Shown here piece after piece: positions 112 through 18,631 of a stretch of 30,693 nucleotides of DNA (position 1 is the first letter of the stretch; each line of letters opens with the position of its first letter). The notes below the pieces were generated by a model. That model saw nothing but the letters and a program-made list of their open reading frames with translations. It was not told the DNA's origin and made no database searches. The position numbers and the translations under genes are program-made. This DNA is from a virus. The stretch spans positions 1 to 30,693 of the IMG/VR virus record IMGVR_UViG_3300021376_000239. One strand, written 5' to 3'.

Positions 112-345
112 TTAAAAAGCCCCACAAGAACACTGCACCCAATCTTTATGCCACCAACACTTTTTATCATGTCCAGTTAGTGACATATCTTTAATACCAT
201 GCTTACCTACGCTGCGCTTTAAATAATCTTTTCCACCGTCAACGGCCAAATTGCCACAGCTGCACATAACAAAATCGTGACGATGCTTACTTTCTACGAC
301 TTCTTGACAATTTAAACATTTTGCTGCATTCTTTATTATTTGCAC
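112..345 (-). CDS. Small zinc-finger-like phage protein (DUF7695-like)
   Basis: This 77-residue protein has a CLNC pair near residue 11, a CSCG pair near residue 28 and a second CSCG at the very C-terminus, with a KHRHDFVMC segment and a DGGKDYLKRS segment between them. That layout resembles small phage proteins annotated as DUF7695, which probably bind a metal through paired cysteines; function unknown. The start is GTG at 345, chosen because GGAGG lies 4 bases upstream; it overlaps the end of the lipoprotein gene by 10 bases, which suggests translational coupling. Family placement is from memory of the pattern and moderately secure; any biochemical role is not known. Confidence 0.65.
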   Translation of the reverse strand: MQIIKNAAKCLNCQEVVESKHRHDFVMCSCGNLAVDGGKDYLKRSVGKHGIKDMSLTGHDKKCWWHKDWVQCSCGAF

Positions 346-1490
346 GTTTCCTCCGCTACGATAGAGTCTAACACAGATTCCATTTCTGGTTGAGACAGGT
401 ATAAATTATATATTCCGCCGTCTGTTGCATCAGTTATTGGTTGGTAAGAAGCATAAACATTGGAAACAGTAAATGTATATACATGTCTATTTTCTTGAAC
501 CGCCATATCTACAACTTCCTGCAAAACAAGTGGTGGGTTATATTCATATGATTGTCCCCCTTCATCCGTAAACATGATAATCACTTTAACTGAATTGTTT
601 CTCCATGTCAAGCCTAATTCATTTAACGAATTACTTAATAAATATATAGCGTCCCACGTTGGTTCAAGAGCACAATTACCTGCATATTGATTTGATAAAG
701 CGATTGAAGCAGCACTAGCATTAGTTAAATCTTGTATTAATAACGTCCGACCATCATAAGTAGAATTAGACCAAGGAGCGGCAACAACGGCAAATTTTAA
801 ATCAGCACGATTATTATATTTTATGACCCATGTTTTTGAAACATTAGCTATATTTCTAATAACATTTTCCATTGAGCCGCTTTCATCAATAACAAATACA
901 ATATCTATTAAGCGGTTTGGTTTTGTTACGTTTTCATCTATTTCACCGTCGCAATCATTATCTTTACCATCACACGTTTCATATTTTGGTAATTGCTGAT
1001 TAATACACTGTACTTTTCCTGCGATACATCTTGAAGAACCGGGGTGGCATTCTCCATACATTAAATTACCAGCATCTCCTGTGTAACATGGTTGCGATAT
1101 AAATTGCAAATCGTCTACTCTACCATTACAATCGTTGTCAAAACCATCACAGATTTCTGTCTGTGGTTTTGGAGCATCGCAATTAATAAATTTTCCATTA
1201 GAACATATTTCAAATCCCATACCACATTGGGTTTGACAAGTTTGATTTATTGATTCATCAATATATCCATCACAATTATTATCTAAACCGTCACATATTT
1301 CTTTTCCAGCGGCACCATATCCTACACATTCTGGTTCCTGTCCTTCGTTACATTCCCAATATCCTAAATGACATATGCCAACACCAGCTTTTTTAGAGTC
1401 TGGGTGGCATACTTGTCCACATATATTATATTTTTGTATTTTTGAATTATCGCAAGAAACTAAAAGGATTAGTAATAGTATTTTTTTCAT
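336..1490 (-). CDS. Predicted lipoprotein with three MopE-type metal-binding repeats and a vWA domain
   Basis: The 384-residue product starts with a lipoprotein signal peptide (basic MKK, a Leu-rich core, lipobox LVSC with Cys13). Asp14 directly follows the lipidated Cys, which in E. coli favours retention in the inner membrane. A Cys-rich region follows with three copies of CDGxDNxCxGxxDx at about residues 66-79, 114-127 and 173-186, the signature of MopE-type metal-binding repeats known from myxobacterial and other surface proteins. Residues about 195-384 look like a von Willebrand A domain: IVFVIDESGSM carries the MIDAS DxSxS and VIIMFTDEGG a later strand. It is therefore expected to be anchored outside the cytoplasm and to bind metal and perhaps a protein ligand. 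A role in altering the infected cell envelope is inference. The ATG at 1490 follows AAGGAGG, which partly lies in a hairpin. Confidence 0.8.
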   Translation of the reverse strand: MKKILLLILLVSCDNSKIQKYNICGQVCHPDSKKAGVGICHLGYWECNEGQEPECVGYGAAGKEICDGLDNNCDGYIDESINQTCQTQCGMGFEICSNGKFINCDAPKPQTEICDGFDNDCNGRVDDLQFISQPCYTGDAGNLMYGECHPGSSRCIAGKVQCINQQLPKYETCDGKDNDCDGEIDENVTKPNRLIDIVFVIDESGSMENVIRNIANVSKTWVIKYNNRADLKFAVVAAPWSNSTYDGRTLLIQDLTNASAASIALSNQYAGNCALEPTWDAIYLLSNSLNELGLTWRNNSVKVIIMFTDEGGQSYEYNPPLVLQEVVDMAVQENRHVYTFTVSNVYASYQPITDATDGGIYNLYLSQPEMESVLDSIVAEETCK

Positions 1491-1492
1491 AA

Positions 1493-1517
1493 GATGCCTC
1501 CTTAATAACTAGGCATC
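1493..1517 (-). promoter_or_regulatory. Hairpin overlapping the ribosome binding site of the lipoprotein gene
   Basis: On the minus strand a perfect 7-base inverted repeat, GATGCCT and AGGCATC, encloses an 11-base loop just before the lipoprotein start codon. The Shine-Dalgarno AAGGAGG straddles the loop and the 3' arm, so folding would hide part of it. There is no T-run after the stem, so it is not a classical terminator. Translational control is inference. Confidence 0.4.
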
Positions 1518-4819: not shown

Positions 4820-5062
4820 CTATCGGTTAATGTGTTTTTCAATCTGTCCTAAAAGTACTTTGTACTTATCCTCTAATCTACCACGTTCTTCAGCTTCTTG
4901 CAAGTGGTCTAATCGAACTTTGATACCTGTATCTTTATTATCAATCAATAGCTTGCGATAAAAACCAAAGTCGTCAGACATATAATAAGATTCGTTTGAA
5001 AAACGCACATCTTGGTTAGACCTACGAGTTAATTCATTTTCTATGACTTTGATATTAAACAT
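4820..5062 (-). CDS. Hypothetical small protein (80 aa)
   Basis: The start is set at ATG 5062 because a strong GGAGG lies 8 bases upstream. A longer in-frame start at 5107 would fall inside a terminator hairpin and has no ribosome binding site. The product begins MFNIKVIENELTRRS and has a charged, helix-prone C-terminus rich in Glu, Arg and Lys. No family is recognised. It is the first gene after a terminator-like hairpin and lies 8 bases before the next gene. Confidence 0.6.
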   Translation of the reverse strand: MFNIKVIENELTRRSNQDVRFSNESYYMSDDFGFYRKLLIDNKDTGIKVRLDHLQEAEERGRLEDKYKVLLGQIEKHINR

Positions 5063-5074
5063 AGCTTTTCCTCC

Positions 5075-5117
5075 AAAAGCAAACGGCACTACAGTCTTTT
5101 GTACCATAGTGCCGTTT
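5075..5117 (-). terminator. Rho-independent terminator-like hairpin
   Basis: On the minus strand, AAACGGCACTA pairs perfectly with TAGTGCCGTTT (11 bp, 15-base loop), followed by GC and TTTT. It starts 18 bases after the stop of the upstream gene and ends just before the ribosome binding site of the next. The tail is short, so termination may be partial, or the stem may protect or process the mRNA. Confidence 0.65.
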
Positions 5118-5134
5118 AAATGTTAAGTTTTATA

Positions 5135-5767
5135 TTAAATATTAACAAATTCTTCATCACCACCGTCTCTCATCATTTTAATAAAATCTCGATTAGACAT
5201 TGTTTTTACTGTTTTATTAACATGTTTGCCATATGGGATTTGAACAAGAGGATAGATAGATTTAGAAACAACACCAGCGTTTTTTATTACTATAGCAGTT
5301 ACAACTTGCGGAATATCTAAAGTGTCATTTTTTTCAGATGGTATTTTTCTATTATCAAAATCATAACCTCCATATTCTTGAGCAGTAGGCCATAAACTAG
5401 TAGGAAATAATTTTACAAATGAATTAAACAAAGATATTTTATCACTACTTTTTTTAAATTGTTTTTCTATTTCTTGGGCTACGGAAAAAATTTGTTCTAC
5501 TTTTTTTATACGTTCTTTTAATTGCTCTTCAGTTTTTTTAGGAATATTCTGTAACTCATTAGCTAAACTTCTAATTTTATTTAGAAGCTGTTTCTCTGAA
5601 ATATTTGTGATTTCAGCACCTGTAGCAGTATCATCGTCTGTAGATGGTTCGTTTGAAGATGGAGTCGATTTTCTAAATCGACTAGAAGCGTCAATAACAT
5701 CGCCTTCAGTTATTTTATTAATTTCTTCTTTAATGATCTGCTTTAAGAACTGTTTAGTGATTTTCAT
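5135..5767 (-). CDS. Phage protein with an N-terminal MKITKxxLKxIIKEE motif
   Basis: The start is ATG 5767, with GGAG 6 bases upstream; a longer TTG start would overlap that site. The 210-residue product opens with MKITKQFLKQIIKEE, a motif I recall at the N-terminus of many otherwise unrelated proteins in large T4-like phages. It is followed by an acidic Ser/Thr-rich linker, a coiled-coil-like stretch (roughly residues 60-110, rich in Lys, Glu and Gln) and a C-terminal domain with SLWPTAQEYGGYDFDN and FIKMMRDGGDEEF. Function is unknown; a virion-associated role is conceivable because that motif family includes structural proteins, but this is inference. Confidence 0.6.
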   Translation of the reverse strand: MKITKQFLKQIIKEEINKITEGDVIDASSRFRKSTPSSNEPSTDDDTATGAEITNISEKQLLNKIRSLANELQNIPKKTEEQLKERIKKVEQIFSVAQEIEKQFKKSSDKISLFNSFVKLFPTSLWPTAQEYGGYDFDNRKIPSEKNDTLDIPQVVTAIVIKNAGVVSKSIYPLVQIPYGKHVNKTVKTMSNRDFIKMMRDGGDEEFVNI

Positions 5768-5794
5768 AATTTTCTCCAAAAGTGTAAATTAAAT

Positions 5795-5824
5795 AGTATA
5801 GCATACCCCAAAAAGTCTATTTAA
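5795..5824 (-). promoter_or_regulatory. Candidate extended -10 promoter
   Basis: In the gap after the RNR gene, the minus strand reads TGCTATACT, an extended -10 box. The best -35 match is TTAAAT at 18-base spacing, which is weak. The box would give a start site just before the ribosome binding site of the gene beginning at 5767. An AT-only inverted repeat (AATTAAATAG and CTATTTAATT) flanks it. Confidence 0.4.
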
Positions 5825-7679
5825 TTGGGCATGCGCCAGAAGAACATTCAAAACTAGTATCTAATTCGCCTTCTCCTACGCCATTATCAATATTGATTGG
5901 TTTAATCTTGGAAGATAGCTTTTCATATTGCTCCTTACTAATCTTCTCTTTTGGAGCCTGCTTAAAACCATGTTCGCTATGACAAAGGAAAGATATAGTT
6001 TTAAGATATTTAAGATTATCTTTTAACCATACTTTTAGCTGTTCTAGTTCTTCACGTTTATAATACACGGTTACACTAACCGCTTGATCTGCCCAATGTT
6101 TTTGTGCCATTTTAACGACATCTAATTGTTTCCAAGTTGTCCAATTTTCATCAGCAACAGGAGCGCTATCAGGAGCAGCAACGTAGAAATCAACAACTTG
6201 TGTATTGTGGTCTAATGTACCATCAAAACGTATTGTAGGCTCCATATAATGTCCCGCTTCTTTTAATAATGGAAGAAGTGGGTCACTGCCTGAAAAACGT
6301 ACACGTTGAATAATGTAGCGTGAATAAGCTGGATGTACACCTTCATAACAATCCATTACTTTGCTAATTGTGCCGCTTGGTTTAATAACGGTTGTACGGA
6401 TACTTTCTGGAATGTTTAATTCTTTAGAGTAGTCGCGGTTTTCTTTTTGAATAGCTGCATAAACTCTATCAAGGATATCGGGTGTAAATAGTGCGCTCTG
6501 CAAGCAACCTGTGATGCCTGTGCCAATTCTACGATTACGTTTAACTACCGCATCACACTTTGGCTGGTGATAAGTTTCGATAGTTACACGCTTACCCCAA
6601 CGATGCATTAAACGTCCCGCTTCAACGAACTCTTCTTCATTTAATAAGTTAGGTAATGCAATTTCTTGAAGATTGCAAGGCTCGCCATCTTCTAATGTTG
6701 CCTCTGCACAAGGATTTACACCAATAGCGGTATCAGGTTTTAAATCACCCATACGTGCATACTTCTGAATGTTCTTGCGATTTACAATGCCAAATGGCTC
6801 ACCCTGTTCATATGTTTTCCAGAATAGGGGATGTAAATCTTCTACATCGTCAACTACTACGGAGAAATTAGCCATAGCACGTTGTGTAGGAATATTGCCC
6901 AAATCCCAGCGCTTTGCTTTTAAATATTCCTTATCCCAAGGGTCACCAAGGATAATGATTGCAGAACGACGAACGTTACCGCTAACAACCATTTCACCAA
7001 TTGAACATAGAATATCTGCCGCATCTACAGGGCGTAAATGGCGACCCTCACGACTCTTTAAAAGTCCTACAAGCTTTTCTATATATACCACCAATGGCTT
7101 TGGACCGCTAGATACACCGCCAAACCCTTTAATTGGCTCACCAGCAGGACGAACACAAACAGTAGAATAAGAGAAAGATTTGCCTGTTACAAAGTATGCT
7201 TCCAATACTCTGCGAGTTAATTCATTCCATCCTTCACGGGAATCAGGAACAATGAAATCAGCATCTTTTGTATCACGACTTACAATGCTTACATCTTTCT
7301 TTAATCTTGGAAGCTTACTTACAAAGCGGTGTTCAACACTCATACCCACACCACCACCAAGCATTAGCAAATCCTGTGCTAATACAAAGTTATTCCATTC
7401 ATCACCGGCAACAAACCAGCAATTATTAAGAGCAACGCCACCAAGCTTTTTATGACTTGGGGCACCACTATACCACCAACCTCGTCCAGCTGGACCAGCC
7501 TTGCGATTCATTAGATAATAACGCAAACGCTGAATTTCTTCTGCTGACACATTATGTCCTTGCACATTACCACGAATAACACGTTCTACCGTATCTGCCC
7601 AATTTTCAAGTGAACCATTATCTTTACGGGCATATGTACGTTTATAAACTACTTTTGCAAGGTTGGACCAGTTAGACAT
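5817..7679 (-). CDS. nrdJ: Adenosylcobalamin-dependent (class II) ribonucleotide reductase
   Basis: The 620-residue enzyme reduces ribonucleotides to deoxyribonucleotides with a B12-generated thiyl radical. Visible landmarks match the monomeric Lactobacillus-type reductase: NNCWF with Cys87 (first redox Cys), NPCAE at 322-326 (radical Cys324 with Asn and Glu), PCNL with Cys335 (second redox Cys), and the C-terminal relay ECSSGACPIK with two Cys separated by four residues. The P-S-G-T phosphate loop appears as VIKPSGTISKVMD. It is somewhat shorter than the roughly 740-residue reference enzyme. No small subunit (NrdB) is seen, as expected for class II. The thioredoxin gene lies directly upstream and probably reduces the C-terminal cysteines. 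Activity would not need oxygen but would need cobalamin from the host. Confidence 0.93.
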   Translation of the reverse strand: MSNWSNLAKVVYKRTYARKDNGSLENWADTVERVIRGNVQGHNVSAEEIQRLRYYLMNRKAGPAGRGWWYSGAPSHKKLGGVALNNCWFVAGDEWNNFVLAQDLLMLGGGVGMSVEHRFVSKLPRLKKDVSIVSRDTKDADFIVPDSREGWNELTRRVLEAYFVTGKSFSYSTVCVRPAGEPIKGFGGVSSGPKPLVVYIEKLVGLLKSREGRHLRPVDAADILCSIGEMVVSGNVRRSAIIILGDPWDKEYLKAKRWDLGNIPTQRAMANFSVVVDDVEDLHPLFWKTYEQGEPFGIVNRKNIQKYARMGDLKPDTAIGVNPCAEATLEDGEPCNLQEIALPNLLNEEEFVEAGRLMHRWGKRVTIETYHQPKCDAVVKRNRRIGTGITGCLQSALFTPDILDRVYAAIQKENRDYSKELNIPESIRTTVIKPSGTISKVMDCYEGVHPAYSRYIIQRVRFSGSDPLLPLLKEAGHYMEPTIRFDGTLDHNTQVVDFYVAAPDSAPVADENWTTWKQLDVVKMAQKHWADQAVSVTVYYKREELEQLKVWLKDNLKYLKTISFLCHSEHGFKQAPKEKISKEQYEKLSSKIKPINIDNGVGEGELDTSFECSSGACPIK

Positions 7680-17417: not shown

Positions 17418-18631
17418 CAATCAACCTTCAAGTTTAGTTTCTTTAAATCTTCATAATTCTTTCCTGCTTTTACATTAACAGGAAATTTGCCATATGGAGT
17501 ATCTTGCAATATCTTAATTATCTCGACTATATCATTTTTTTCTTCGTTTGTTACATCTAAAACAAATTCATCATGAACCATAAAAGATACAAAACTTTTC
17601 TTGTCACGTAGATAGTCATCTACTTTGATAATCTGGCGATGAAACATATCTATAAACGTAGATTGATTTAGGTATGATATTGCATGATGTTCATCAGCTT
17701 GCATTTTACGACCATATGGTGTTTCAACGTATCCATCAATCCAATATTTATTCAGTAATGATTGCTTGTCATAAAGCTGCGCTAATTCCGCATCATATTT
17801 TATAGAAAGTGGAGAATGCGAGTTGTACAACCACGCAGTTGCAGTTTCTTTCGCTTTAGAGCGGTCTAGCTGCCCTTTAAAAACGTTTTCTGCACTCCAA
17901 CCATGTAAGTCGCCTTCGGGTTGGCCTCGCCCGTTTAAAGCCAAAGCTGTGCGTAATTCAGCAGCATTCATATCAAATACAATAAACCAATTATTTTGCG
18001 GATGAAGAATATTACGATATTGTTTTGGGAAAGTCAATATAGGAAAACTATTTTTGTTAACTGTCAATCTGCCAGTTATACTAGAAAACATATTATAAGA
18101 AATGTTATTTTTACCGTTAGCGACTTTACGATAAAAATTCATTGCTCCTTCTTTCCATAATTTATTCTGGATGCTCTCTAGCTTAATATTTAAATCACGA
18201 TTTTTGATATCAACAAGCAATTCAGTAAAACGCTTATAAAAATCATATTGTGCAGGTCTTGTATGGTTTTGAAATACATACTCGCTAATTTGATTTCGTA
18301 AATGACAGTATTCAATAAGAAAACGTTCAGGGGTTAAATCAAAAAAACAATTTTCTCTTAAAGAGACTTTAGATTCAACGCATGACGCAATAATGCTTTT
18401 TAGCTTTTTATTAATAGCCGACCATTCATCTTTTAAATGTTCAGGGCACACATCATCTAAAGATTTACCATCACAATATAATTGAGCATAGTCTATATTT
18501 TTGCCTTTTAAAAAAGCAGAATAAGACCATGTTTTATTTAAATTATTTGGTAATGGCTGATGGAAAGTTAATTTGTTATCTGTATAAAATCCTACACATT
18601 GCGCCTTATCGTCAAGAGTTTGAAATAGCAA
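17417..18631 (-). CDS. Small family A DNA polymerase lacking an exonuclease domain
   Basis: The 404-residue product has the polymerase core of family A: TGRLTV (186-191), motif A FDMNAAELR (219-227; Asp220, Glu225), O helix RSKAKETATAWLY (257-269; Arg257, Lys261, Tyr269), YVETPYGRK (301-309) and motif C MVHDEF (351-356; Asp354). Relative to E. coli Pol I, Phe762 of the O helix is Thr265 and the following Gly is Asn270. The roughly 180 residues before the core show no DxE/DxD exonuclease motifs, so proofreading must be absent or separate. The core also looks compact between the O helix and motif C. The start is TTG 18631 with AAGGTG upstream. It would be the replicative polymerase, in a genome whose other replication proteins are T4-like. 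Confidence 0.87.
   Translation of the reverse strand: MLFQTLDDKAQCVGFYTDNKLTFHQPLPNNLNKTWSYSAFLKGKNIDYAQLYCDGKSLDDVCPEHLKDEWSAINKKLKSIIASCVESKVSLRENCFFDLTPERFLIEYCHLRNQISEYVFQNHTRPAQYDFYKRFTELLVDIKNRDLNIKLESIQNKLWKEGAMNFYRKVANGKNNISYNMFSSITGRLTVNKNSFPILTFPKQYRNILHPQNNWFIVFDMNAAELRTALALNGRGQPEGDLHGWSAENVFKGQLDRSKAKETATAWLYNSHSPLSIKYDAELAQLYDKQSLLNKYWIDGYVETPYGRKMQADEHHAISYLNQSTFIDMFHRQIIKVDDYLRDKKSFVSFMVHDEFVLDVTNEEKNDIVEIIKILQDTPYGKFPVNVKAGKNYEDLKKLNLKVD

Follow-up and report, generated by a model that had tools for sequence, protein, structure and literature searches.

The uncultivated virus record IMGVR_UViG_3300021376_000239 from IMG/VR, whose 30,693 nt (~30.7 kb) are the window analysed here, encodes a predicted 384-aa lipoprotein that combines MopE repeats with a C-terminal vWA domain containing a MIDAS. 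We see an even chance that this protein is a phage-made envelope lipoprotein of the MIDAS-adhesin type, which binds a ligand via a metal ion and modifies the surface of the infected cell. Judged by profile matches, variants of it occur in more than 100 further uncultured viruses of bacteria. The MopE-vWA lipoproteins are apparently an undescribed phage family, and a literature search for MopE together with phage returned nothing related.

The lipoprotein gene (336-1490, minus strand) is supported as an ORF, by profile matches and by its phage relatives. It is preceded by the Shine-Dalgarno sequence AAGGAGG (1497-1503, minus strand, as are all features of the gene given below), 6 bases upstream of the ATG. 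The N-terminus reads MKKILLLILLVSC followed by DN, which corresponds to a short predicted signal peptide (residues 1-12, 1455-1490), the lipobox LVSC and an Asp at position +2. The predicted lipidation site, Cys13 (1452-1454), is invariant in 15 and conserved in more than 90% of 44 aligned phage proteins. Three repeats of the pattern CDGxDNxCxGxxDx follow, namely CDGLDNNCDGYIDE (residues 66-79, 1254-1295), CDGFDNDCNGRVDD (residues 114-127, 1110-1151) and CDGKDNDCDGEIDE (residues 173-186, 933-974). They are recognised in the alignment and by the profile PF11617 (Cu-binding_MopE), which matches in three stretches (E 8.9e-16, 58.3 bits versus a cut-off of 27). The vWA domain (residues 193-383, 342-914) is matched by PF00092 (E 2.1e-6, 28.5 bits versus a cut-off of 23.8) and is also evident from the AlphaFold2 model and its fold matches. 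Both matches lie above the curated cut-offs, and the HMM search thereby confirms the initial annotation, which had proposed MopE repeats and a MIDAS-containing vWA domain within one phage lipoprotein. A search of the lipoprotein against the NCBIfam profiles gave no match above cut-off, and a sequence search of the PDB gave no match.

All elements of a MIDAS are present in the vWA domain: the DxSxS motif, the loop-2 residue (Thr or acidic, here Glu) and an Asp in loop 3. Loop 1 is formed by D202-E-S204-G-S206 (873-887), with the first Asp in 135/135, the first Ser in 134/135 and the second Ser in 135/135 of the compared ORFs. Loop 2 contributes Glu276 (663-665) within E-P-T-W-D-A; this Glu is found in all ORFs (135/135), as part of the motif E-x-x-x-D-A, and the Asp following it in 133/135. 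Asp309 of loop 3 (FTDE, 564-566) and the Glu next to it are each conserved in 134/134. The five positions are therefore invariant or nearly so in these ~135 ORFs, which were chosen by their match to the vWA profile and are biased towards conserved MIDAS residues to that extent, and likewise in the 44 aligned relatives. The MIDAS of the classical alpha-I type has a Thr where this family has the invariant Glu.

The structure predicted by AlphaFold2 with the 44 aligned phage proteins (pLDDT 86) contains a confident, Rossmann-like vWA fold. Aligned over about 172-192 residues, it matches known structures with Z-scores of up to 18.8. The best PDB fold matches are integrin beta I domains (E 5.5e-11, Z 18.8), followed by TFIIH p44 (Z 18.4) at a distance of less than one Z unit. 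This is a tie, and no ligand can be named from the fold. The N-terminal repeat region, modelled alone, reached a pLDDT of 84 and had no fold match of weight among known structures, which is evidence neither for a novel fold nor for a known one.

The family is large and divergent. Scanning IMG/VR with the lipoprotein yielded 65 loci, seven at 82-90% identity and most of the others at 24-37%; three of the 65 match through the repeats only. A second scan was evaluated for the best 80 of 434 related stretches, many of the 434 being perhaps repeat-only matches. Both profiles match 110 distinct phage ORFs whose 5' side is complete; a MopE repeat is present in 110/110 of them and a lipobox-like N-terminus in 107/110, the latter called by a simple rule of our own rather than a trained predictor and not used for selecting the ORFs. 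PF11617 is detected at an E-value up to 0.001 in all 44 aligned family members, PF00092 at E ≤ 0.001 in only 14 of the 44. Numerous cysteines are also invariant in alignments of the phage relatives, which fits export of the protein. The initial annotation had drawn attention to the Asp directly after the lipidated Cys. This residue is indeed present, but it occurs in only 10 of the 107 family members, where Ser is the commonest residue, and most relatives at 84-86% identity have Gly instead. Asp at +2 is thus not conserved and is probably not to be taken for a sorting signal, and with a +2 residue that varies in this way the membrane is not fixed by the sequence. We found no isolate with a MopE-vWA lipoprotein in a collection of 50,697 phage records; a tblastn search of INPHARED with three family members returned only a weak 27% match, covering the vWA region, in an uncultured gut phage.

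The virus itself is an uncultivated myovirus. Profile matches in the window comprise a DnaB helicase, a UvsX/RecA-like recombinase, SSB, RNR, ThyX and a DNA polymerase, together with a baseplate hub and a tail tube. Terminase, portal, tail sheath and baseplate wedge are found in G002, a relative of 103 kb, and on these the assignment to the myoviruses is based; the window and G002 together bear out the phage gene cluster described initially. The nearest relative of the G002 terminase is that of Microcystis phage Mel-JY01 (44%), followed by Flavobacterium phages (40%). Within this lineage the neighbours of the lipoprotein gene are replication and nucleotide genes (ThyX, RNR, DNA polymerase), and no recognised lysis gene adjoins it. 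Its end overlaps the gene of a 77-aa DUF7695 protein (PF24749; 112-345, minus strand) that travels with it, and the order of the two is conserved in L002, L003, L005, L008 and L200 (the record of L004). Neither an Rfam search nor a search for tRNA genes in the window and the relatives tried produced a match, and promoter and terminator scans stayed at chance level. Further observations concern the surrounding genes. The RNR (5817-7679, minus strand) matches a B12-dependent insertion-domain family. A 214-aa protein (5135-5779, minus strand) has the N-terminal stretch MKITKQFLKQIIKEEI, and this tag recurs in 34 of 1468 ORFs of related loci, in proteins of differing length, and in none after shuffling. 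The tag is reminiscent of those that target T4 internal proteins to the capsid. A second N-terminal tag (~MKLLxENWRxYLxE) occurs in 30 ORFs of related loci (L023, L026, L028, L029 and others) and again in none after shuffling.

Strong purifying selection acts on the lipoprotein gene. Omega is 0.08-0.11 (about 0.09) between the window and six relatives, values that are approximate because dS (0.8-1.4) is near saturation. Protein identity to the relatives is 84-90%, and 79% in L006, where the gene continues in another frame. By comparison, RNR reaches 91-94%, ThyX 68-88% and the two genes adjoining the lipoprotein gene 44-78%; the lipoprotein is therefore better conserved than its two adjoining genes and mostly than ThyX, and comes near RNR. 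The MopE-vWA frame of L006 (8001-9269) runs on into the DUF7695 end and gives a product of 422 aa, by a frameshift or a sequencing error.

At the same time, the gene is accessory in its own lineage. An IMG/VR scan by RNR showed that it is present in the sampled relatives with at least 91% RNR identity wherever the site is covered, and absent from sister phages (RNR 83-86%) and from L191 (RNR 90%). Eleven records lacking the gene at the site were searched as a whole without a match, although these records may be fragments. In L191 the site (about 17940-18017), immediately ahead of the DNA polymerase gene, retains only a short stretch similar to the DUF7695 end, a deletion scar. The same site is filled by the lipoprotein gene, DUF7695 and one more ORF in L005 and L008. 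A tree of the family separates the window clade from the RNR-bearing L031, L032 and L060 and forces at least three changes of this RNR label; several of its branches are long and make the details unsure. More than one gain or loss is needed to explain it. This accessory status argues against a core structural or an obligatory lysis role in the window lineage.

We found no partner gene common to all lineages. In one lineage (L011, L015 and much of L277-L323) the genes directly upstream encode two small proteins, exported or membrane-anchored, and overlap the start of the lipoprotein gene in the majority of members; trypsin-like lipoproteins or an M50 protease are encoded close by. The temperate phage L302 has an Amidase_3 endolysin and a small lipoprotein, then the MopE-vWA gene, a position after the endolysin that fits late expression. 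In L324, a temperate phage with integrase and repressor, the genes for an endolysin, a small lipoprotein and the MopE-vWA lipoprotein follow one another (5001-7053). In L040 a DUF5658 membrane protein adjoins the gene, with look-alikes in L027 and L061.

Such neighbourhoods make it conceivable that the protein is a late outer-membrane component of lysis, either similar to a spanin or a factor that helps to disrupt this membrane. The order of genes in L302 favours this explanation, as do the neighbours in other lineages that match endolysin or transglycosylase families and, in one lineage, the N-terminally membrane-anchored protein whose gene overlaps the start. However, the gene of the window lineage lies among ThyX, RNR and DNA polymerase without an adjoining lysis gene, sister phages with the same backbone do without it, so that it is not needed for lysis there, and to our knowledge a MIDAS head has not been described for spanins. 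We therefore consider a function in lysis unlikely. The proposal that the gene is a neutral host gene acquired by chance could draw on the frequency of MopE repeats in Myxococcota and on the accessory status. It appears extremely unlikely to us in view of an omega of about 0.09, a MIDAS that is invariant across the ~135 phage ORFs, a codon GC3 resembling that of several neighbours, and the fact that the best vWA match among 284 Myxococcota genomes is itself located on a phage contig.

Capture of metal, as a copper or calcium store, had been among the functions suggested initially, and Pfam does name the PF11617 repeat a putative metal-binding motif. This suggestion did not hold up well, because the copper ligands of MopE are two His and a kynurenine (PMC3423442), whereas the conserved residues of the repeats are here Asp, Asn, Gly and Cys. 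These would rather suit calcium and disulphides as elements of structure, and a metal store is very unlikely. A more serious competitor is an adhesin that attaches infected cells to one another, to prey or to particles, so that more progeny is transmitted locally. Bd0875 offers a precedent for such an adhesin, MopE repeats are abundant in a Polyangium genome and the MIDAS is conserved. However, the strong conservation would equally fit a conserved ligand on the own cell, and a social or predatory host is an assumption of this explanation, which we rate as possible, if somewhat unlikely.

The repeats were also thought to point to the host, and they do so towards Myxococcota and relatives: one Polyangium genome contains ~100 matches, compared to 0 in 14 control genomes. 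A genome scan with the full alignment hit, among the matches listed, mostly MAGs of Myxococcota or Deltaproteobacteria. The 284 Myxococcota genomes contain one strong vWA match, on a 35-kb contig in a MAG, whose genes match those of the phage contig L062; the 35-kb contig thus looks like a phage binned in a Myxococcota MAG. Two other phyla gave one weaker vWA match each, and on the contigs concerned no gene besides the vWA gene matched the phage gene set. On L182 (G234 contig), a phage contig in a Myxococcota MAG, the MopE-vWA gene is accompanied by a fatty acid hydroxylase-like gene. The best lead to the host is therefore Myxococcota or bacteria related to them, albeit an unproven and weak lead, since binning errors are common.

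We therefore return to surface modification of the infected cell. Divergent as the family members are, they retain the lipobox, the cysteines and the MIDAS, which speaks for a binder that is exported, anchored and metal-dependent, and modification of the envelope, as suggested initially, is the most economical reading. The phage would make the protein during infection, and the host cell would export it and lipidate Cys13. It would then sit on the envelope, most likely at the outer membrane and presumably on its surface side, the MopE repeats, rich in disulphides, forming a stalk that carries the vWA domain as its distal head. The head might bind a protein ligand through the metal ion at the MIDAS, and if this ligand were a protein of the infected cell's own envelope or one of its receptors, the surface of that cell would be altered. 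Bacterial lipobox MIDAS adhesins and phage exclusion lipoproteins together lead us to rank surface modification first and superinfection exclusion as its likeliest benefit, a leading guess that we hold tentatively, ahead of adhesion and, in third place, a role in lysis. Many phage lineages might even share a dedicated surface-remodelling kit that centres on the MIDAS lipoprotein and alters recognition or adhesion of infected Myxococcota-like bacteria. In one lineage the kit would also comprise an M50 protease, trypsin-like lipoproteins and two partners, exported or membrane-anchored, whose genes overlap. As a whole this proposal is unlikely to apply. Few phage proteins are known to us to work on the exterior of an infected cell, and these are mostly small. 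The MopE-vWA family is large, conserved and widespread, has a recognisable site for metal-dependent binding and is represented by no cultured phage in the searched collection. The lipidation Cys and the five MIDAS residues provide a defined target for studying how phages refit the host surface, and the MopE-vWA combination might serve as a marker of phages that infect Myxococcota-like bacteria.

Among known systems, the MopE and other PF11617 proteins share the repeat CDGxDNDCDGxxDE and are exported as well, but MopE binds copper by residues other than those conserved in the repeat. We know of no vWA domain in MopE. Integrin beta I domains resemble the phage protein in fold (Z 18.8) and carry the same loop-2 Glu and E-x-x-x-D-A motif; they differ by their low identity (13-17%) and by the predicted lipid anchor of the phage protein. 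The outer component of a two-gene spanin has no counterpart in the gene order of the window lineage, whereas the arrangement in L302 resembles it. Shared with the adhesins Bd0875 and Bd1483 of Bdellovibrio bacteriovorus are a lipobox, a vWA/MIDAS fold, an expected envelope location and a central MIDAS Asp, which the adhesin Bd0875 needs (PMC11003981). These proteins are bacterial, however, and their MIDAS domain is inserted in a small beta domain formed from both termini, while in the phage lipoprotein the vWA domain is C-terminal (residues 193-383 of 384); the text of the paper describing them does not mention MopE (PMC11003981). The other precedent is Llp of phage T5, a lipoprotein that excludes superinfection (PMC9586334). 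Llp is small, has neither vWA nor MopE and adjoins a receptor-binding gene, so that the protein described here, with 384 aa and ThyX, RNR and DNA polymerase as neighbours, does not belong to the Llp/Cor type. Both are nevertheless phage lipoproteins made during infection, with an anchor in the outer membrane as the likely case here.
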